DNA of 55,966 nucleotides from Natrinema salsiterrestre (GTDB lineage Archaea; Halobacteriota; Halobacteria; Halobacteriales; Natrialbaceae): positions 1-55,966 of the forward strand of contig NZ_JAMQOT010000015.1 in NCBI RefSeq assembly GCF_029502005.1. Direction: 5' to 3'. Positions 33,102-49,940 of this stretch are shown here, piece by piece. The number at the start of each line of letters is the position of its first letter. Position 1 is the first letter of the stretch. The notes under the pieces were generated by a model. It was not told where the DNA came from. It did not search any database and saw only the letters and a program-made list of their open reading frames with translations. The translations under genes and the position numbers were made by a program.

Positions 33102-33746
33102 CTACTCCCCACCTCCGTTGTCTTCGTTGGCGTGACTGTTCTGCCACTCGAGATCGTTTTCGACAAACGCTCGACCCGCGTCAGTCAGCTCGTAGTTGTT
33201 CGTTCGTCTGTCGAGTTGACTCTTCTCGACGAGCCCGTAATCGATGAGGCCGTCGAGGTTCGGGTAGAGCCGTCCGTGGTTTACCTTCTCCCCGTAGTAG
33301 TCCTCGAGCTCGCGCTTGACCGCGAGTCCGTACCGATCCTCCTCGGCAAGAATCTCGAGAATCCGCGTCTGGAACTTCGACACGTCCTGACGGAGCTCGT
33401 GGACCTCCGCTGCCGAAAGATCGCTGCGGATCTGGCCGCCGTCCGTGGCGACCGTGGGTTTGTCGGCGATCGTGTCGAACTGGTCGGCCAGTGTGTGGAG
33501 TGCATCGCCCGGTGTCCGGCCAGTATGTTCGCCGTATGCCGGACCGCCGTCGACTCTTGCACACCACTCGTCGGTGGTCTGCTCGGAATCGAGTTGCTCG
33601 AGGACGATCTCGAGTGAGTCCTGTTGCTCGATTCGCTCAGTTGCGATGGCGGCCCGACTACTGGTGTCAGTGGCCGCTTCAGTTTCAACCGATTCGATAC
33701 CGCTATCCGTTCCGGGGTTGTTCTCCCCGGTGGCTCCATGCGTCAT
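33102..33746 (-). CDS. PadR-type winged-helix regulator
   Basis: A 214-residue protein. Residues about 125-195 form a PadR winged helix (FQTRILEILAEEDRYGLAVKRE; YYGEKVNHGRLYPNLDGLIDYGLVEK; YELTDAGR). A strand-helix unit lies before it (EIVLEQLDSE...TPGDALHTLADQFD), perhaps for dimerisation or ligand binding. It begins 78 bp after the AbrB-like gene. It may control this middle operon. Confidence 0.8.
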   Translation of the reverse strand: MTHGATGENNPGTDSGIESVETEAATDTSSRAAIATERIEQQDSLEIVLEQLDSEQTTDEWCARVDGGPAYGEHTGRTPGDALHTLADQFDTIADKPTVATDGGQIRSDLSAAEVHELRQDVSKFQTRILEILAEEDRYGLAVKRELEDYYGEKVNHGRLYPNLDGLIDYGLVEKSQLDRRTNNYELTDAGRAFVENDLEWQNSHANEDNGGGE

Positions 33747-33774
33747 TGTAATTGTGGCGTGTGGGGTTGGCCCC

Positions 33775-33817
33775 CTGCGCGCCCGGCCTCGGGTACCAAG
33801 CGATTCCGGTCGCGCAG
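33775..33817. promoter_or_regulatory. Inverted repeat CTGCGCG...CGCGCAG
   Basis: Seven-bp arms at 33775-33781 and 33811-33817 with an internal CCGG pair, in the 78-bp gap between the AbrB-like gene stop and the PadR gene start. It may be an operator, an attenuator or a processing hairpin. Confidence 0.35.
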
Positions 33818-33824
33818 GACAGGG

Positions 33825-34037
33825 CTAATTCTCGTTCTGTTCGTCAGCGTCGGGCCGTCGTAGCACGATCTCGTCGCCGCCGATGTCGGCCTCGAGTTCG
33901 ACCTCGTCCTCTTCGCCGAACTCGGTGAATTCGAAGATAATCGGTGGGATGGTGATGACGCTTGTTCCGCCACCACCACTCCGGATCGGGCGTTCTCGAC
34001 AGATCTTGTCTGCTGCTTCATTTGACCCTCTACTCAT
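33825..34037 (-). CDS. AbrB/SpoVT-like regulator (minus)
   Basis: A 70-residue protein; residues 15-62 (IRSGGGGTSVITIPPIIFEF; GEEDEVELEADIGGDEIVLRRP) fit the swapped-hairpin AbrB/SpoVT fold. ATG at 34037 chosen over a TTG one codon earlier. It is encoded back to back with a paralogue at 34170, sharing a 132-bp promoter region. Such proteins bind DNA as dimers and often regulate themselves. Confidence 0.75.
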   Translation of the reverse strand: MSRGSNEAADKICRERPIRSGGGGTSVITIPPIIFEFTEFGEEDEVELEADIGGDEIVLRRPDADEQNEN

Positions 34038-34169
34038 CAATACTCACTTTATTTTGGTTCATAATAGTCTCTTTGGTAGCACTGAGTCTAAATCTTATTT
34101 CTCTCTGACTTTGCCACGGTGCCTAACACTTATCATTCTGCGTTGTGATATACGAACTGAGGAAGATAC
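34038..34169. promoter_or_regulatory. Divergent promoter between two AbrB-like genes
   Basis: An A/T-rich gap with a minus-strand TATA (AAAATAAAG, about 34050) about 20 nt before the ATG at 34037 and a plus-strand TATA (GATATAC, about 34149) about 22 nt before the ATG at 34170. Both would give leaderless mRNAs. Confidence 0.55.
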
Positions 34170-34418
34170 ATGAGTAAGAGTCAGCAAGTACCCCCCATGG
34201 GACGGAAAGTGGAGATTGATCGAGAGAACCAGACCATTCACGCGACTCGGGATCTGCGAGCATCTGGTGGAAGTACTGTGGTCTCGATTCCAGATGAGAT
34301 CCTACAGTCCGTAGGGTTCGAAGAGGGAGACGAGCTTGAGCTTGTAGCTGATATGTTCGGCGATGAGATCCGCTTGCGGAAATCGCCGCACGATGGCCCC
34401 TCTCCAACAGGCGAGTAG
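34170..34418 (+). CDS. AbrB/SpoVT-like regulator (plus)
   Basis: An 82-residue protein with the AbrB core about 13-72 (RKVEIDRENQTIHATRDL; GSTVVSIPDEILQSVGFEEGDELELVADMFGDEIRL). The N-terminal part extends the paralogue encoded opposite. The gene is monocistronic and convergent with the zinc gene at 34455. The pair may form hetero-dimers or a switch. Confidence 0.75.
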   Translation: MSKSQQVPPMGRKVEIDRENQTIHATRDLRASGGSTVVSIPDEILQSVGFEEGDELELVADMFGDEIRLRKSPHDGPSPTGE

Positions 34419-34454
34419 CGCCTTTTCGCATAGATAGTCTGTTTCGAAGTATGA

Positions 34455-34697
34455 TCATCGGCCACCTACCGTCGGTTTTCCGAACTGTCCCTTTGAATCG
34501 GCGTCCGGACCGACGAACTCGATCTCGTCTCGAGCGACGCGATCGCCGGTCTCGTTGTTGACCAGCTCATCGTACGTACGCCCGCAGGAACGGCATTCAA
34601 ATTTGCCGTCGGTCACCCGCCAATTGGAGTGACGTTTCGGGCTTGGACAGACCCAGCGCCATTTCTGCAGAGGGTCACTGGTATCAACTCTGTACAT
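34455..34697 (-). CDS. Zinc protein, 80 residues
   Basis: Has VCPSPKRHSNW and CRSCGRTYDEL, one C-H-C-C zinc site, in a form seen in short haloarchaeal viral proteins. The ATG at 34697 has a TATA box (34722-34728, GTTTAAG on the plus strand) at the right distance for a leaderless mRNA, so it is a single-gene unit. Confidence 0.7.
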   Translation of the reverse strand: MYRVDTSDPLQKWRWVCPSPKRHSNWRVTDGKFECRSCGRTYDELVNNETGDRVARDEIEFVGPDADSKGQFGKPTVGGR

Positions 34698-34944
34698 ATG
34701 CAGAGGGTCGCGTGATATCCTGTTTAAGTCTCGTGGATGCCGGAGTGAAAGTGAAAGTGACTGTGCAACTGATCTGACTTTGCGTTTTATCTACCGAATC
34801 CATTGGGCATCGCCAGTACGTGCAGACTACAGTCACTAAAGTGATATTGCTAGCGAATTACAGAGTTATACGTACGTACGCTCTGCTGTACGCACGTCAT
34901 TCTAAAGGTGCATATGTACGTCTGACGAGTTAATCAGCAAAATT
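34698..34944. promoter_or_regulatory. Divergent control region with TACGT repeats
   Basis: A 247-bp A/T-rich gap. It holds the TATA of the zinc gene (34722-34728) and three TACGT-type repeats: 34869-34880, 34887-34898 and 34913-34926. The last two flank the start of the phiH1-repressor-like gene at 34945. They look like operators for that repressor. Confidence 0.55.
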
Positions 34945-35289
34945 ATGTCTAACTCGTCCAACGGACCGGACGAGCCCGAAATGCATCGGCAGGTGAGCTG
35001 GATGGTGGCCGCCGATGCGCTTATCCTCGAGTTTCTCTACTCAACGCGCGATCGCCGTGGGCGGCCGGCGATCCAGACACCGCGGACGATCCACCTCAAC
35101 ACGGGCTATTCCCGACAACACGCCAGTGGTCGCTGCAAGGTTCTCGTCGAATACGGTTTAGTCGAACAGACTGGCGAGGGCGAGTACCGGCTGACCGACT
35201 TCGGCGAGCAGGTCATGGCCGACGAGATTCCGCTCGAGGAGCTGGACGAGCTCGAGCCAACTGACGACCAGGACGTCGACGAAGAGTGA
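34945..35289 (+). CDS. phiH1-repressor-like winged-helix regulator
   Basis: A 114-residue protein with the layout of phiH1-type repressors: WMVAADALILEFLYSTRD, a recognition helix in GYSRQHASGRCKVLVEYGLV, and YRLTDFGEQVMADEIPLEEL. It probably binds the TACGT repeats just upstream and helps choose between lysogeny and lysis. Its stop abuts the stop of the convergent DUF4352-like gene. Confidence 0.8.
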   Translation: MSNSSNGPDEPEMHRQVSWMVAADALILEFLYSTRDRRGRPAIQTPRTIHLNTGYSRQHASGRCKVLVEYGLVEQTGEGEYRLTDFGEQVMADEIPLEELDELEPTDDQDVDEE

Positions 35290-36015
35290 CTACGTCTCCA
35301 TCTCGATCGGCATCGAACCGTCCCGCTCGAAGCTAATCGAGACGGTTTCGTCGTAGAAGGCTTGATCCGATCCGCGGAGCGTCCCTTGCGTGGCATCCTC
35401 TGGAATCGAGAACACGACCCAGGCACGATACGTCGAACCAGACTCGAGTGCCACATTACTGAGCCCATTACCGCTGCCAAGCAAGCCCTGATAGTCGTGA
35501 ACGACGCCACCGGACTCGAACTGGAACAGTTGCGGCGTCAGCTCGGTTTCGTTGGTCCCCTGGTTCTCGATCTCCATCCGGACGACGAGGTACTTCTGCC
35601 CGTCTTCGCTTGAATAGTGAGTCATCGAGTCCGGATCGGGGTTGACCGACGTCTGTGCCCGGGTGTTGTAGGTCACGGCGAGCTCGTGATCTGGTTGCTC
35701 GGCCTCGAGGTCCTGGTGCTCGACCGTGACGTTCGAAACCTCATCTCCGGGCCCGCTGACTGTGCCGGCAGATGTCATCGCGAGCAGCACGATCCCGGCG
35801 ATGAGCAGGATTGTTGGGATGCCAGCGGCCGCTCCCGTCGAAAATTCGATCCCTGTCTGGTCCTGGAATACACGCCGCGTCTTCGGGATCGCAACGATGC
35901 CAGCAACGATCAGCACGACACCGCTGAGGAAGCTGGTGAAACAAACGAGTGCTCCGAAAAGTAGCATCGGGATCCCGAGCAAGTAGCCCAGAATCGACTT
36001 GAAAGTGAGTTTCAT
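35290..36015 (-). CDS. Membrane protein with DUF4352-like domain
   Basis: A 241-residue protein from ATG 36015. Two or three N-terminal spans (about 8-28, 29-45, 63-85) lead to an external domain with YLVVRMEIENQGTNETELTPQLFQFE and YRAWVVFSIPEDATQGTL, the DUF4352 pattern for an Ig-like surface domain. Like the lipoprotein gene in the tail operon, it ends directly against an opposite-strand stop. It may alter the lysogen surface. Confidence 0.8.
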   Translation of the reverse strand: MKLTFKSILGYLLGIPMLLFGALVCFTSFLSGVVLIVAGIVAIPKTRRVFQDQTGIEFSTGAAAGIPTILLIAGIVLLAMTSAGTVSGPGDEVSNVTVEHQDLEAEQPDHELAVTYNTRAQTSVNPDPDSMTHYSSEDGQKYLVVRMEIENQGTNETELTPQLFQFESGGVVHDYQGLLGSGNGLSNVALESGSTYRAWVVFSIPEDATQGTLRGSDQAFYDETVSISFERDGSMPIEMET

Positions 36016-36085
36016 GAACAGGTCATTCGGCCTGCAACCAGTAAATGTTCTGGATAGTTGACTGGTCAAAGTCGCCTGTTCGATC

Positions 36086-36126
36086 TTAACCAACACGCAA
36101 GCCGTTTCCCGACCTGTGTTGGTTAA
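36086..36126. repeat. Inverted repeat TTAACCAACAC...GTGTTGGTTAA, left copy
   Basis: Perfect 11-bp arms (36086-36096 and 36116-36126) around a 19-bp spacer. The same repeat with 10-bp arms recurs at 38408-38448, on the other side of the NurA-HicBA module. A 12-bp sequence CAGAATTTCGAC at 36150-36161 reappears inverted at 38460-38471. Confidence 0.8.
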
Positions 36127-36206
36127 TACCTGAGATGGCGGGGATTCAGAATTTCGACAATCAGCAGGAAAGGCCAGACAACACCGCCCCAGAATGACCG
36201 TCCCGA

Positions 36207-37487
36207 TCAATCAGATAAATGAGGCCACCGATAGTCATCTTCGGTCTTGTCTTCGGGTGCGTTGAATTGCTTCTCGAGAGACTCTTTGAGTGAGTCCTTT
36301 TCTCCCCGCCCGATTTTGGCTAACTCGTCTGCCTTCTTAACGATCTGTGGTGGTCCACCTGCAACCGCAACGTCCTGGAGGAGCTGCAGCGTCAACCGAT
36401 CACGGCGATCTTGCTCCTTCGTGAACACGTAGGGGGCTTCAACACGGTAGATAAGATCGCGTCGTGGGTCGTAGACCACGAAAAACGTAACCTCGTAATC
36501 CTCGTCGGGAAGCTTCTTTTCGATGCCGAGGGCGTTTCCATCGGTTGAAAGGGGCTGGTCTGTCCCTCCACGGGAGCGGAACCAGTTTGTGTACGTGAGC
36601 GCTGAGTCGTCACGCTCCCACCGCTCCCCAACAACATCGTCCACCCGTTCTCCGACTTCGAGGACGTGCGTGAAGAACGCTGCATCGTCGGCCCACGGGA
36701 CGACGTCAACGTCATGATCACGTTTTACAGCTCGCGTAATCATTCGCCGCTGTGGGTTCTTCACGAACCCAGCAAGCGGGATCCCGCGCTCTTCAAACTC
36801 TTCAATGAGCCGAACATAGTTCTCTAGGACAGTCGTCGGACTCGGATTTTCAATGAGGAAGTTGGACGCGTCATGGTTTCGGTCGCCCCACCGAAGCATT
36901 CCTCGAGGATAGATGGGACCATCCAAAATGAGGAGATCAGAAACAGCATCTGAGTGGACGCGGGCATGTTCGCTTTCTGCGTAATACAGCGCCAGCGCAT
37001 GGACAACGCCCCCAGCAACCCCTGATAGTGGCGGGATCTTCACCGCTCGCATTCGGCTGTAATCGTCGTCGAACGTATGCCACTCATCATTGACCTTCAG
37101 TTCGTGGTTGTTCGAGTGGAAGGTTGAGACGACCGTTCGCGACCGGTGCAGATCTAAATCAGATGGTGTTGTCGCCATCGCTGCCTGTGCGACGTCGACG
37201 ACCAGCCCGTTTTTGAACTGTGTGGGGTTGATCGTTCCGGCATCGACAGCGTGTTGCGTCTCGAACGGTTGTTCGGCCAGGCCCGCATCTTCGATATTGA
37301 TTCTGTGTCGCGACAACCCGTCTAATGACTCCAGAATCACCCGGTTCTTATTTGCATCCAAGAGCGGGTCAAGCGACTTGGACCACACTTTCTCTGCCAC
37401 CTGCCGATGCTCTTGAACGTCCACGCCGTACTCGACGAACTCGGCAATCCTCGAGATACCGTCGAAGTGGACGGGATCAAGTGTCAT
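36207..37487 (-). CDS. nurA: NurA-family 5'-3' nuclease
   Basis: A 426-residue protein starting MTLDPVHFDGISRIAEFVEYG, the usual start of haloarchaeal NurA proteins. Conserved parts are visible: AVKIPPLSGVAGGVVHALALYYAE, LLILDGPIYPRG (Asp metal ligand), LENYVRLIEEFEERGIPLAGFVKNPQRR and a C-terminal VEAPYVF...LQLLQDVAVAGG. NurA normally works with the HerA ATPase in end resection at DNA breaks, but no HerA gene is in the window. It may use the host HerA, or act alone in viral recombination or defence. It sits divergently next to hicBA. Confidence 0.85.
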   Translation of the reverse strand: MTLDPVHFDGISRIAEFVEYGVDVQEHRQVAEKVWSKSLDPLLDANKNRVILESLDGLSRHRINIEDAGLAEQPFETQHAVDAGTINPTQFKNGLVVDVAQAAMATTPSDLDLHRSRTVVSTFHSNNHELKVNDEWHTFDDDYSRMRAVKIPPLSGVAGGVVHALALYYAESEHARVHSDAVSDLLILDGPIYPRGMLRWGDRNHDASNFLIENPSPTTVLENYVRLIEEFEERGIPLAGFVKNPQRRMITRAVKRDHDVDVVPWADDAAFFTHVLEVGERVDDVVGERWERDDSALTYTNWFRSRGGTDQPLSTDGNALGIEKKLPDEDYEVTFFVVYDPRRDLIYRVEAPYVFTKEQDRRDRLTLQLLQDVAVAGGPPQIVKKADELAKIGRGEKDSLKESLEKQFNAPEDKTEDDYRWPHLSD

Positions 37488-37596
37488 AGTCAACAGAACA
37501 AACAGGTTCCTCAAAAAGAAGGTGGTTGTCACGTTATGCTGTCCCGTTCCGCAGCGGGCCGAATGCTTATCCACCCATCCCCCATACAGACAACCA
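37488..37596. promoter_or_regulatory. Divergent promoter nurA / hicBA
   Basis: The plus strand has a TATA-like TGCTTATCC near 37564-37572, about 27 nt before the hicB ATG. The minus strand has TTCTTTTTGAGG near 37510, about 30 nt before the nurA ATG. Both fit leaderless mRNAs. Confidence 0.5.
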
Positions 37597-37896
37597 ATGA
37601 GTACGGACACTGGATCCAACGGCACACCACCTGTCGAAGAGCGAATCACGCTCACGAAAGAGGACGACTGGTGGGTTGCAAAAGACGAAGGAACAGGTGT
37701 CGCCAGTCAGGGGAAGACACGGACTGAAGCCCTCAAGAATCTCGATGAGGCCGTTGCTCTGTACAACGGTGAGGTCGGAGAGTCGATCGATTCTTGGGAA
37801 GAGGAGAAGGAGGTACTGGAAGATCTCGGACTCGATCCCGAGGAAGTGAAGGCGAATCGGGAAGCAGCTGATGGCCTTCCTGAGTTCATGCAGTGA
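37597..37896 (+). CDS. hicB: HicB-type antitoxin
   Basis: A 99-residue protein with the HicB partial RNase-H fold: RITLTKEDDWWVAKDEGTGVASQGKTRTEALKNLDEAVALYN. The C-terminal part is helical (EEKEVLEDLGLDPEEVKANRE). It neutralises HicA. I chose the ATG at 37597 from the TATA spacing, over 25 extra codons. The gene ends 3 bp before hicA, and the antitoxin-first order differs from the common hicA-hicB order. Confidence 0.85.
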   Translation: MSTDTGSNGTPPVEERITLTKEDDWWVAKDEGTGVASQGKTRTEALKNLDEAVALYNGEVGESIDSWEEEKEVLEDLGLDPEEVKANREAADGLPEFMQ

Positions 37897-37899
37897 CGA

Positions 37900-38148
37900 A
37901 TGCCGACAACTGATTTTTCAGGTCTCGACATCGTCAAGGCTCTGACCAAGAACCGGTTTCGGACCGTCGGTCGAGAGGGGAGTCACGTAAGGCTCCGGTA
38001 CGAACACCCGACCAATTCCGACGATGTTCGCGTCGTCTCAGTCCCGATGCACGACCGGATCAAAACCGGCACGCTCCGGAATATCGCCGATCAATGTGGT
38101 GCAGAGGACTTCCACGCCTGGTGCGAATGGATCGATCAGTCCCGGTAG
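37900..38148 (+). CDS. hicA: HicA-type mRNA interferase toxin
   Basis: An 82-residue protein with the dsRNA-binding-like HicA core: VKALTKNRFRTVGREGSHVRLRY (His29 probably catalytic) and SVPMHDRIKTGTLRNIADQCG. It cuts mRNA when free of HicB. It overlaps the convergent 52-residue gene by 13 bp. It could stabilise the episome or stop growth upon infection by rivals. Confidence 0.9.
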   Translation: MPTTDFSGLDIVKALTKNRFRTVGREGSHVRLRYEHPTNSDDVRVVSVPMHDRIKTGTLRNIADQCGAEDFHAWCEWIDQSR

Positions 38149-38294
38149 AGAGAATCGACAAGATCGTCAGTTGTGAGGTACTCGTCTTCCTCGAGTTCGT
38201 TGAGATTGGACGCACGCTCAGCGATGACCTCACGCTCATCAGGCAGCATTTCGTCCTCTGGTGGCTGCTGGCTAGCGCTTCGGTCAGTTGCCAT
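38136..38294 (-). CDS. 52-residue leaderless gene product
   Basis: ATG at 38294, stop at 38136. It is acidic and helical (MLPDEREVIAERASNLNEL; EYLTTDDLVDSLYRD), similar in style to small RelB/PhD-type antitoxins. A clear TATA (GTGTATATAG at 38316-38325) stands at the right distance for a leaderless mRNA. Its 3' end overlaps hicA, so the antisense transcript could also affect the toxin mRNA. Confidence 0.65.
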   Translation of the reverse strand: MATDRSASQQPPEDEMLPDEREVIAERASNLNELEEDEYLTTDDLVDSLYRD

Positions 38295-38315
38295 ACCTAA
38301 TCTCAGTATGTACGT

Positions 38316-38325
38316 GTGTATATAG
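38316..38325 (-). promoter_or_regulatory. TATA box of the 52-residue gene, with TACGT site
   Basis: TATATA-type box about 22-31 nt before the ATG at 38294. A TACGTGTGTAT motif (38307-38322) overlaps it, resembling the TACGT sites at 34.9 and 40.4 kb, so the promoter may be under the same repressor. Confidence 0.6.
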
Positions 38326-38407
38326 CTTTAGCTGCGAAAGAGTACTGGGGATTTAGAGGTGTTTCAACGGAGATTCGGAGTACCTTCTCCGGTACCGTTG
38401 TGCCGAA

Positions 38408-38448
38408 TTAACCAACAAAACCGTCACACCCTCTCGCGTGTTGGTTAA
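38408..38448. repeat. Inverted repeat TTAACCAACA...TGTTGGTTAA, right copy
   Basis: Perfect 10-bp arms at 38408-38417 and 38439-38448, spacer 21 bp. It repeats the left copy 2.3 kb away. The 12-bp GTCGAAATTCTG at 38460-38471 is the inverse of 36150-36161. It may be an operator, a recombination or insertion boundary. Confidence 0.8.
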
Positions 38449-38501
38449 GCTCTAAGACGTCGAAATTCTGGCGGAATACCTCGAGAGAAAACAGCGAACA
38501 G

Positions 38502-38741
38502 CTACTTCGCGACTGCGATCAGGAACGCGCCCTGTTGCTGCACTGATCCAACACCGCAGTCATGATCGGCCAGCGTCCCCAGCACGCCTGGCGGGATGCG
38601 GTCGACCTCGCGCTCAAGGACGATCTCGAGTGCTCGTGGAACCGCATCCGTGTCGTGCTCGACGACACGGGCATCGCGAACGGTCGGGTGCACGCCGACA
38701 GTCTCGGCGGCCGTCTCGAGGTCCGCGGTCTGGATACTCAC
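38502..38741 (-). CDS. 79-residue protein
   Basis: A GTG at 38741 overlaps the upstream stop as GTGA. The product (SIQTADLETAAETVGVHP; ALEIVLEREVDRIPPGVLGT; GAFLIAVAK) has a strand-helix-strand pattern but no named family. Longer in-frame sequence upstream is the antisense shadow of the SWIM gene. Confidence 0.6.
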   Translation of the reverse strand: MSIQTADLETAAETVGVHPTVRDARVVEHDTDAVPRALEIVLEREVDRIPPGVLGTLADHDCGVGSVQQQGAFLIAVAK

Positions 38742-39085
38742 TGCGACCACCTCGTGCGCTGAGCCTCGAGCGCGCGATCGACGTCGGCGTCGGCCGGTGG
38801 GCGGATCCGACCGAGGGCCATCAAGACCCTTGCACTGTGTTTGCAGCGGGCGATCTGCCCGCTTCCCGGCTTGCCCCGATGCATCCAGTCGTCGCACGTG
38901 CAACGGCCTGCGCGAAGATCAACAACGTACTCAGAGTACTCCGACCCACTGCCAGATCCGACGCCCCAGAGGCGCTCGGCGATCCGCCAGATCCCCATCG
39001 GCTGCTCGGCGCCGCGACGGTCGCGGGTGAGTGTCGCCTCGTCGATCCCGGCCGTTGGGTCGTGGGCGGACTCGGCGGCCGCCAT
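38738..39085 (-). CDS. SWIM zinc-finger protein
   Basis: A 115-residue protein with the SWIM pattern CxC...CxH in YVVDLRAGRCTCDDW...ARCKHSARVLMAL (about 52-92). SWIM fingers bind DNA or proteins and are frequent in haloarchaeal viruses and plasmids. The ATG at 39085 makes a TGATG overlap with the upstream stop. Confidence 0.85.
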   Translation of the reverse strand: MAAAESAHDPTAGIDEATLTRDRRGAEQPMGIWRIAERLWGVGSGSGSEYSEYVVDLRAGRCTCDDWMHRGKPGSGQIARCKHSARVLMALGRIRPPADADVDRALEAQRTRWSQ

Positions 39086-39501
39086 CACGCGGTCACCTTC
39101 TCCCAGACGCCAGCTCGGTCAGCTGCCTCGGAGTGCCCCTGCAGCCAGTCACGAGCCTCGCACTTCGCGTCTTCAATCTCGGCGTCGTCCCAGTCGTCGC
39201 CCCAGTCGTCAATGACCTCGAGCATGTCGGCAAGCGCAGCGGCGGTGACTTCGTCGACGACGTCATCAATGTGACCGTCGACCGTCTCCGCTGCACCGAA
39301 GACGTCCATCCGGCGGTCTTCGAGATCTTCGTCGGCCGATAGCTCGTAGACGTCCTCTGCGACCGAGACGTACCGCTGGAGGTCAGGCCCGTGATCGTGG
39401 TGGCCCTGGACTGTCTCGTAGACTTTGTTGTGGCAGATCGTCGCGTCGAACGCGTTCGCGCGCTTGTGGGCGAGTTCGTTGAGTCGCTTCCGCGCCTGCA
39501 T
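39085..39501 (-). CDS. 138-residue acidic helical protein
   Basis: Starts MQARKRLNELAHKRANAFDAT and contains VYETVQGHHDHGPD and a long acidic helical half (DEVTAAALADMLEVIDDWGDDWDDAEIED). The C-terminus is WLQGHSEAADRAGVWEKV. Two Cys do not form a clear zinc site. Unknown. Confidence 0.65.
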   Translation of the reverse strand: MQARKRLNELAHKRANAFDATICHNKVYETVQGHHDHGPDLQRYVSVAEDVYELSADEDLEDRRMDVFGAAETVDGHIDDVVDEVTAAALADMLEVIDDWGDDWDDAEIEDAKCEARDWLQGHSEAADRAGVWEKVTA

Positions 39502-39986
39502 CACTTCTCACCTCCGTCGTCACCGTCGCGATCGTGGACGCGATGAACAACCTCGAGACGACTCTTCGGGAACGCGAACTTCTTCTTCCCCTCGATGGTG
39601 AGATCTTTTCGATTCGGGTAGACGACCTCGACGACGTCATCGTCCGGTGGGTACTCTGTGTTGACGTCCGCGACTGTTGGGCCGTCTTCCATCTCGTACG
39701 CGTCGGCTTGGAGCGTGTCGAGATTGACTACTACCATCGTCGCGTCGGGGTTCTGTTCGTCCTCGACGTGATCGCCAACGTCGATCGGCTGCGTCTCGCC
39801 GCCGTCAGTCGCGACGGCCGAACCGTCATCAGCGACGATGATCTTCGAGCCGTCTGTCTCTTCGACCGTCGGCTCGTAGCCGGCGACCGCGCGAGCCTCC
39901 GCCCGGATACGCATCTCGCGAGCGGCCTCGCGCTCGAGTTCCTCCGCGCGCTGTGCGACAGCTTCGTGATCTGTAACGACCGTCAT
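39501..39986 (-). CDS. 161-residue protein
   Basis: ATG at 39986, overlapping the upstream stop as ATGA. A charged helix (AQRAEELEREAAREMRIRAEARAVAG) is followed by an acidic strand-rich domain (TMVVVNLDTLQADAYEM; DVVEVVYPNRKDLTIEGKKKFAFP). The C-terminal part has the look of a small SH3-like fold. Unnamed. Confidence 0.65.
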   Translation of the reverse strand: MTVVTDHEAVAQRAEELEREAAREMRIRAEARAVAGYEPTVEETDGSKIIVADDGSAVATDGGETQPIDVGDHVEDEQNPDATMVVVNLDTLQADAYEMEDGPTVADVNTEYPPDDDVVEVVYPNRKDLTIEGKKKFAFPKSRLEVVHRVHDRDGDDGGEK

Positions 39987-40267
39987 TGGTCGACACCTCC
40001 GTCGGTCGCAACTGCCTGCCCGCCGATCGGCCCGATGTAGCGCCGGCGTCGTGCCCCGCAGTCGGGACAGGCGCAGTCGCCGTCGTGGTTGTACTCCGTT
40101 CCGCAGTTGGTACACTCGACGCGCTTCGTCTCGACGTCCTCCTGGTCGTCTTCGTCGTCCTCGAAGTAGTCCGAAGGGACGCCGTACCGGTTCTCGAGCG
40201 AGCAGTCCTTACAGATCCGCCGGTTCGGACTAGTCAGTTGTCCGCACTGTTTGCATTTGCGCGTCAT
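39983..40267 (-). CDS. Multi-zinc-ribbon protein, first gene of operon
   Basis: A 94-residue protein with four CxxC pairs: CKQCGQ, CKDCSLE, CTNCGTE and CPDCGAR, forming two zinc ribbons. It ends GGQAVATDGGVDQ. It is the promoter-proximal gene of the 40.3-38.5 kb minus operon, with a leader of about 130 nt. Likely a nucleic-acid binding or regulatory protein. Confidence 0.75.
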   Translation of the reverse strand: MTRKCKQCGQLTSPNRRICKDCSLENRYGVPSDYFEDDEDDQEDVETKRVECTNCGTEYNHDGDCACPDCGARRRRYIGPIGGQAVATDGGVDQ

Positions 40268-40504
40268 CAGTTGACCTCCTGTGCTTCCGAAACCGTTTCG
40301 AGGGTTCGCGTTTGAACGTTCATTGCTGTTTCACAGCACGGGGTCGGTGTCTTCAGCACCGGCCTCAGATTCTCCGAGGTGTTCCGTGCTTACTCAACAG
40401 TACAGGCGCCATTGCTATAAATGTTTGCTTTGTCAAGTACGTGCGTATTAGCTATACCAAACATTTAATCCGTCAAGGAACATGGTCAAGTCGAGGGCAG
40501 AGAA
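40268..40504. promoter_or_regulatory. Divergent promoter with palindrome TAAATGTTTG...CAAACATTTA
   Basis: Ten-bp arms at 40418-40427 and 40458-40467. The left arm, read on the minus strand, includes TATA for the gene at 40267; the right arm includes TATA (CATTTAAT, 40462-40469) about 38 nt before the ATG at 40505. A TACGTGCGTAT site (40436-40451) lies between. A second palindrome CGAAAC-C-GTTTCG is at 40287-40299. Confidence 0.65.
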
Positions 40505-40867
40505 ATGAACCTGAAAATGGCTCACGAACCCAACGACGCCGACGGGTTAATCCTCAACACGCTTACCGAAGGGCGAAATTCACCGCAGAATCTCGCCGAT
40601 AAGCTGGATTACTCTCGGCAATATGTACAGAACCGGCTCCAACTACTCAACGCGGCCGAGTTTGTTGAGAACATCGGCGGCGGCCTCTATGAACTCACAG
40701 ACAAGGGGCGTGACGAGATTGGTGCACCCGAACGCGACCAACTTGAGCGCGTGGCCGACGCGCTAGACGAGATCGAGGCAGCATTCGAACGCGGCGATCC
40801 AGAGGCAGCACGCGCAGCGCTCGAGCAAGCCCAAGAAGCAATCTCAGACACTAATTCCAATGACTAA
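40505..40867 (+). CDS. Winged-helix regulator of the plus operon
   Basis: A 120-residue protein: winged helix about 8-75 (DGLILNTLTEGRNSPQNLADKLDYSRQYVQNRLQLL; GGLYELTDKGRDEI) and a C-terminal dimerising helix (ERVADALDEIEAAFERGDPEAARAALEQAQEAI). It starts at the divergent promoter and is thus a good candidate for its autoregulator. ATG at 40505; a second ATG four codons later is possible. Confidence 0.8.
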   Translation: MNLKMAHEPNDADGLILNTLTEGRNSPQNLADKLDYSRQYVQNRLQLLNAAEFVENIGGGLYELTDKGRDEIGAPERDQLERVADALDEIEAAFERGDPEAARAALEQAQEAISDTNSND

Positions 40868-49061: not shown

Positions 49062-49940
49062 ATGAGTGGAGATAATACAAACACTACCGAGGCTGATGGG
49101 GAAACGTGGCGACAACTGCGAGAACAGCGTCTTGAGATCGACGATCATCAATGCGTGAACTGCGGTAACAGTGGTATGCTGCATGTTCACCATGTAGTTC
49201 CGAAGAGTCTTGGCGGAGTTGATGAACTCTCTAATCTGAGGTCACTATGTATAGATTGCCACGATAAAGCTCATGACCGGAGTATTGGAGTGATAAAAGG
49301 GCACTACAAGAGTAGTGATACTCGATGGCTGCCATCTACTGACACGATGCGGTGGTTTATTAACCAGATACACCACCCTTTGGATCGGTTGGTCGTCATA
49401 ATATTAGCAAAGACAGGCATCGGGGTTGGAGAACTCTCGTCGCTTACAGTTGATGATATTTACCTCCGTGACGGTGGGTTAGGCCTCACGTCAACTGTAG
49501 AGCGACCGTCTCACCCCTTCTTTCTCCTCGAGGAAACAAAAAACGGGCCCGGTAGTGGCGTTTCCCAGAGGTTGTGTGACACCTTTGTGCCGATCGGCCC
49601 GGAACTCCAAGGGTGTTTGATGAGATATTTGGCGATTAGGCCGGATGGTCTTACCAATAAATTGCTTCTTGGTACGGGGGAATCATGGGGTGAAGGGGTA
49701 GGAAGAGACGGGATCGAATATATAATCAGAAAACACGGACAGAAGGTTGGCTTTTATGAAAGTGGCGCTGGTGCTACTAAGAACCTCACTCCGAATGTGT
49801 TCCGTCAATTTTTCGACGAGCGCTATCAGGGGCAGCCTGCTGTCCGTGATTATATCCTCGGCAAGAAAAAGAAGATGCAATTCGACCAAGGGCAGATCGT
49901 TACAGATTACCGTGAGTCAATATACGAACTCTTATTTTGA
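49062..49940 (+). CDS. HNH domain fused to degenerate tyrosine-recombinase domain
   Basis: A 292-residue protein. Residues 28-70 are an HNH nuclease: C31/C34, HVHHVVPKS (His43-His44), Asn59 and C63/C66-H67. Residues 100-290 follow the integrase catalytic fold: LAKTGIGVGELSSLTVDDI (normally TGxRxxE; Arg replaced by Gly121), LTPNVFRQFF (HxxR with His replaced by Asn; Arg248 kept), YILGKKKK (LGH with His replaced by Lys) and Tyr283 at the right spacing. The gene is AT-rich and single. The recombinase part may only bind DNA, and the HNH may cut; an active enzyme is doubtful. Confidence 0.75.
   Translation: MSGDNTNTTEADGETWRQLREQRLEIDDHQCVNCGNSGMLHVHHVVPKSLGGVDELSNLRSLCIDCHDKAHDRSIGVIKGHYKSSDTRWLPSTDTMRWFINQIHHPLDRLVVIILAKTGIGVGELSSLTVDDIYLRDGGLGLTSTVERPSHPFFLLEETKNGPGSGVSQRLCDTFVPIGPELQGCLMRYLAIRPDGLTNKLLLGTGESWGEGVGRDGIEYIIRKHGQKVGFYESGAGATKNLTPNVFRQFFDERYQGQPAVRDYILGKKKKMQFDQGQIVTDYRESIYELLF

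Follow-up and report, generated by a model that had tools for sequence, protein, structure and literature searches.

Why would a NurA nuclease lie beside a HicBA toxin–antitoxin pair in an archaeal provirus, and what do the matching repeats on either side of these genes represent? An earlier note, made from the sequence alone, proposed an accessory module between inverted repeats that could serve as a defence or addiction island, with NurA acting alone or with host HerA on rival DNA. We examined this locus in a 55,966-nt stretch of Natrinema salsiterrestre DNA (hereafter "the window"), which is part of a head-tailed provirus—its virion structural protein, portal and terminase match PHROGs head-and-packaging families—and asked whether the module is real, whether it behaves as a unit in relatives, and whether its boundaries recur elsewhere in Halobacteriales.

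The gene module and its boundaries

The arrangement described in the note is present in the window, and its parts are as follows:

35290–36015 (−), left flanking viral gene (DUF4352), present next to the empty site of a sister provirus (L257, below)
36086–36126, left boundary site, an exact TTAACCAACA-N21-TGTTGGTTAA
36127–38407, inserted cassette (2281 bp; GC 0.548 against 0.60–0.62 in the viral flanks)
36207–37487 (−), NurA nuclease, an extra copy (Pfam PF09376, E=3e-19)
37597–37896 (+), HicB-like antitoxin, DUF7387 (PF24113, E=4e-21)
37900–38148 (+), HicA toxin (PF07927, E=7e-13), 3 bp from its partner
38136–38294 (−), 52-aa acidic ORF, overlapping the HicA 3′ end tail-to-tail by 13 bp
38408–38448, right boundary site, an exact TTAACCAACA-N21-TGTTGGTTAA
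38502–38741 (−), right flanking viral gene

The HicA and HicB-like domains thus sit together in one antitoxin-first operon, although toxicity and its neutralization were not assayed. The small ORF has a CTATATA box about 30 nt upstream of its ATG, which fits a leaderless gene, but it has no Pfam, NCBIfam or PADLOC match and no relative in any fetched locus. No HerA is encoded within 36127–38407.

The two palindromes hold the only four arms within one mismatch in the 56 kb, where shuffling predicts 0.47 (none of 100 shuffles reached four) and base composition predicts about 2e-8 whole sites in the window. By contrast, the 12-bp CAGAATTTCGAC pair that the note also took as a border (36147–36158, +; 38459–38470, −) is real but not symmetric: one copy lies inside the unit and one outside, the right copy is absent from the sister provirus, and 12-mer inverted pairs of this kind are expected by chance, so we discarded it. 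Elsewhere in the window, at 49062–49940 (+), an unusual provirus integrase-like protein has an HNH endonuclease domain fused to part of a tyrosine recombinase (HNH families, E about 1e-14; archaeal XerA model, E=1e-8; PHROG integrase, E=1e-4).

A sister provirus with one empty site

If the module were an insertion bounded by its repeats, relatives lacking it should show a single empty repeat, as the note had predicted. A provirus in another genome of the same genus (L257; numbers prefixed "L" denote the loci compared) bears this out. It matches the window at 84% over 33674–36058 and at 83% over 38482–40863, and between these collinear blocks it has 99 bp holding exactly one site, TTAACCAACA-N21-CGTTGGTTAA (L257 11470–11510), where the window has palindrome–cassette–palindrome. 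A third, more distant halovirus (L233, from IMG/VR) carries the same right flank, 85% identical to L257, joined across a site to an Orc1/Cdc6-like gene instead, while further relatives (L186 and L258, probably the same provirus) have neither site nor cassette at this place. The cassette is therefore an insertion bounded by the sites.

NurA and HicBA as cargo

The note's functional interpretation was only partly supported: the accessory module between inverted repeats holds, whereas a NurA–HicBA defence set is not supported. A NurA was found in 99 of 101 genomes of the family, nearly always at one other locus and about 60–65% identical to the window copy in most; the second copy in the window's own genome (contig C20, position 461099) is 63% identical. 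The window NurA keeps 185 of 218 columns invariant in 29 other NurA proteins, with the invariant acidic and other polar positions largely kept. No NurA relatives were found in IMG/VR. HicBA relatives occur in 169 of 293 genomes, yet the 19 related loci that were fetched, and two plasmid regions, have no NurA beside them. Genes found apart in relatives had been named in advance as evidence against a set, and by this criterion the set is a cargo combination, which we read as put together by cassette gain and not as a defence system. PADLOC has no model matching any of the four proteins, and activity on rival DNA was not assayed. Most likely the cargo is a stabilizing toxin–antitoxin pair plus a DNA-end-processing enzyme of use to the virus, though this is a guess.

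The site is widespread on plasmids and viruses

The palindrome, whose role as a genus-spanning cassette boundary the note missed, is not private to this virus. With a gap of 15–25 bp allowed, the pattern occurs 21 times in the window's own genome and the reversed control pattern 0 times; across 293 Halobacteriales genomes, 174 carry it (1,192 sites in all), with the control at 0 in every genome. About 45 viral contigs carry it. The sites lie in gaps between genes, on plasmids and viruses, with a spacer of 20–22 bp. In 217 distinct sites the spacer is 21 or 22 bp in 192, the arms are near-invariant, and the last arm base is G in 5%.

Modules between neighbouring sites have a median length of 2.75 kb, although in L155 (4443–4490) two sites lie only 48 bp apart with no gene between them, like an empty cassette. 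Contents of site-bearing regions include ArdC-like anti-restriction proteins, nucleotidyltransferase and VapBC-type toxin–antitoxin pairs, ADP-ribosylglycohydrolase, Orc1/Cdc6, PolB, a TFIIB-type factor, an OB-fold protein and mercury resistance genes. A 108-aa protein family of unknown function (MSYESPTPPANLPTE...; L121 5877–6203 and 34 relatives; 218 NCBI plasmid records) sits about 15 bp from a site in most copies and is very common on haloarchaeal plasmids, often beside orc1/cdc6.

Homology ends at the sites

To ask whether the sites mark exchangeable module edges, we compared 80 loci of 8–20 kb from 15 other genomes, 12 stretches of the window's own genome and 10 annotated plasmid regions. 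At ≥80% identity, distinct ends of cross-locus alignments fall at sites 13.8 per kb, against 2.6 in other intergenic DNA and 1.4 in coding DNA; the enrichment over other intergenic DNA is 5.2–6.2-fold at the identity levels tried. Of the ends inside a site, 328 of 484 (≥80% identity) are also inside a site of the partner (71 of 83 in an earlier subset). At sequence level the shared flank runs into one arm and stops at the arm/spacer edge, such that the spacer belongs to one of the two modules. No event at near-100% identity was found, and exact crossover positions are thus inferred from comparisons at 84–95%. Spacers at empty and filled junctions are often unrelated.

Gene families keep the site at a fixed distance whatever lies beyond it, with 4–13 different neighbours and at 3′ as well as 5′ ends. 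In one family the site lies −3 to 21 bp after the stop in 13 of 14 copies with 6 kinds of neighbour, in another it lies at exactly 10 bp in 7 of 7 copies where a site is present, and in another it lies about 15 bp before the start with 13 kinds of neighbour. Many different cassettes also begin, right next to the site, with a short T-run and a GC-rich inverted repeat (GTTTTTC-AGCGCCCGCCGAGGGGCG type) before the start codon, a shared 5′ leader of unknown role (L039 3788, L263 7572, L264 8956 and most of 64 similar flanks); as a result, flank similarity alone does not always mean common descent of the whole module.

Three further boundaries show a cassette present versus one empty site. An AbiEii-like nucleotidyltransferase pair (1.56 kb) lies between two sites in L101 and L129, with one site in L041, L090, L133, L094 and L091; a 1.36-kb regulator cassette is present in L094, with one site in L084 and L090. 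In NCBI plasmids, the same nucleotidyltransferase cassette type is present in two different genera (Haloplanus rallus and Halorientalis litorea) and replaced by one site with a conserved spacer in Halorarius litoreus, Haloplanus sp. GX21, Halobacterium sp. GN101 and Natrinema sp. J7-2. However, gene adjacency is not uniformly less conserved across sites, and these plasmids also rearrange at gaps without them: at ≥75% protein identity, adjacency of co-directional genes is conserved in 0.23 of comparisons across sites against 0.38 elsewhere, whereas divergent pairs go the other way (0.72 against 0.21), driven at least partly by one common gene pair.

Search for the enzyme

No recombinase was identified. 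We listed tyrosine recombinases (PF00589 hits) in seven genomes, and fetched and clustered most of them, but no subfamily was specific to site-bearing genomes. The best candidate, a 435-aa tyrosine recombinase family found near sites in some genomes (L089 5406–6713 and relatives in 109 of 293 genomes), is statistically associated with the sites (odds ratio 4.5 for ≥3 sites) yet absent from 25 genomes with at least 8 sites, including this one, and so probably reflects plasmid load. A search for the integron integrase IntI (TIGR02249) in seven site-bearing genomes returned nothing over the 265-bit cut-off (best, 42 bits).

A model of cassette exchange

We interpret the block as a mobile gene cassette carried by a head-tailed provirus, one of a kind delimited by two 10-bp inverted arms (TTAACCAACA / TGTTGGTTAA) about 20–22 bp apart and gained, lost and reshuffled at these sites on plasmids and viruses throughout Halobacteriales (probability roughly 0.7; the missing enzyme is the main gap and the reason for claiming no more). 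The data themselves demonstrate one site where a cassette is absent and two where it is present, homology that ends at the sites, breakpoints at the inner edge of an arm, and fixed distances to start or stop codons while neighbours change. What we infer beyond this is that an unidentified protein binds the site—given the near-constant spacer, with about three helical turns between arm centres—and exchanges DNA at a single arm, so that each spacer travels with one of the two modules. A centre crossover would require shared spacers, which junction partners do not have. The stronger proposal, which remains tentative and in our view slightly less likely than not, is an order-wide archaeal cassette-exchange system, unrelated to integrons, that uses an undescribed recombinase to load plasmids and viruses with toxin–antitoxin, anti-restriction, defence, replication and DNA-repair cassettes through crossover at a 10-bp arm of a 41-bp palindromic site.

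Among the alternatives, the least unlikely is that the palindrome is a regulatory site (operator, ssDNA promoter or insulator) shared by accessory genes of plasmids and viruses, e.g., for expression on entry into a new cell, and merely carried by modules that move by other means. Sites are indeed enriched in divergent gaps (57 of 186 against 138 of 720 in the background) and often lie 15–90 bp upstream of a start codon, one gene family has the site about 15 bp upstream of the start with a conserved AAACTATG in the spacer, and the cargo includes ArdC, a TFIIB-type factor and toxin–antitoxin genes, like establishment genes of conjugative plasmids (PMC8708921; PMC11541004). Yet the sites are not always upstream of a gene: 27 of 186 lie in convergent gaps (genes were called with a simple script, so orientation counts carry some error), a convergent site lies between two annotated genes in L262 and L266, the second site of the nucleotidyltransferase cassette is convergent, and other sites sit 10–20 bp after stop codons with changing neighbours. 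An operator role alone explains neither these convergent sites nor the one shared site, rather than two, that remains when a cassette is absent.

Both remaining alternatives appear very unlikely. Cassettes could be non-autonomous transposons with 10-bp terminal inverted repeats, 5′-TGTTGGTTAA...TTAACCAACA-3′, inserted end to end by a DDE transposase supplied in trans, and each module does start TG and end CA with identical inverted ends. But such elements should leave target-site duplications, and none was found: the two spacers of 128 site-to-site modules are no more alike than shuffled pairs (mean score 2.96 against 2.69, standard error 0.19, none ≥10). Moreover, insertion into a 21-bp spacer would not keep 20–22 bp on both sides, and no transposase with these ends was seen in the modules listed. 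Ordinary homologous or illegitimate recombination that happens to favour short intergenic repeats would fit the highly mosaic plasmids, in which many breaks lie elsewhere, but only the two 10-bp arms are shared while spacers and flanks differ, and breaks concentrate at the arm edge in both partners.

Relation to known systems

Text searches for the arm sequences, and topic searches, listed no paper that names this site, although these covered open-licence papers only and leave room for a description elsewhere. If our reading is right, haloarchaea have an integron-like trading post that links plasmids and viruses and explains the mosaic make-up of their megaplasmids. As the site is a simple string, cassettes can be listed in any haloarchaeal genome, and the genes inside, many of unknown function, become a guide to new defence, counter-defence and addiction systems. 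It also poses a sharp question: which enzyme recognizes TTAACCAACA-N(20–22)-TGTTGGTTAA?

The closest parallel is the integron gene-cassette array (IntI/attC), which likewise has small modules of accessory genes, one boundary site per junction, a spacer that travels with one neighbour, and gain and loss that leave a single site. However, the arms lack the attC core boxes RYYYAAC and GTTRRRY (arm TGTTGGTTAA reads GTTGGTT, whose sixth base is not R), no integron integrase scored above cut-off in seven site-bearing genomes, sites bear no fixed orientation to genes, many cassettes seem to carry their own promoters, and no attI-like platform was seen. Recombination of a folded single strand was not assayed, though spacers add only 0.4 kcal/mol to the ssDNA hairpin over shuffled spacers. 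Reported archaeal integrons come from nine phyla, Asgard above all, with no mention of haloarchaea in the text (PMC9668308).

Leading-region (establishment) genes of conjugative plasmids share the recurrent cargo of ArdC-type anti-restriction, toxin–antitoxin and ssDNA-binding genes (PMC11541004), whereas the modules here are bounded by a recombining site, lie on both strands and also occur within head-tailed proviruses. Finally, in relation to the HerA–NurA end-resection system, the cassette NurA is a member of the NurA family with its invariant polar residues largely kept, but it is an extra copy that lies next to HicBA without HerA beside it.
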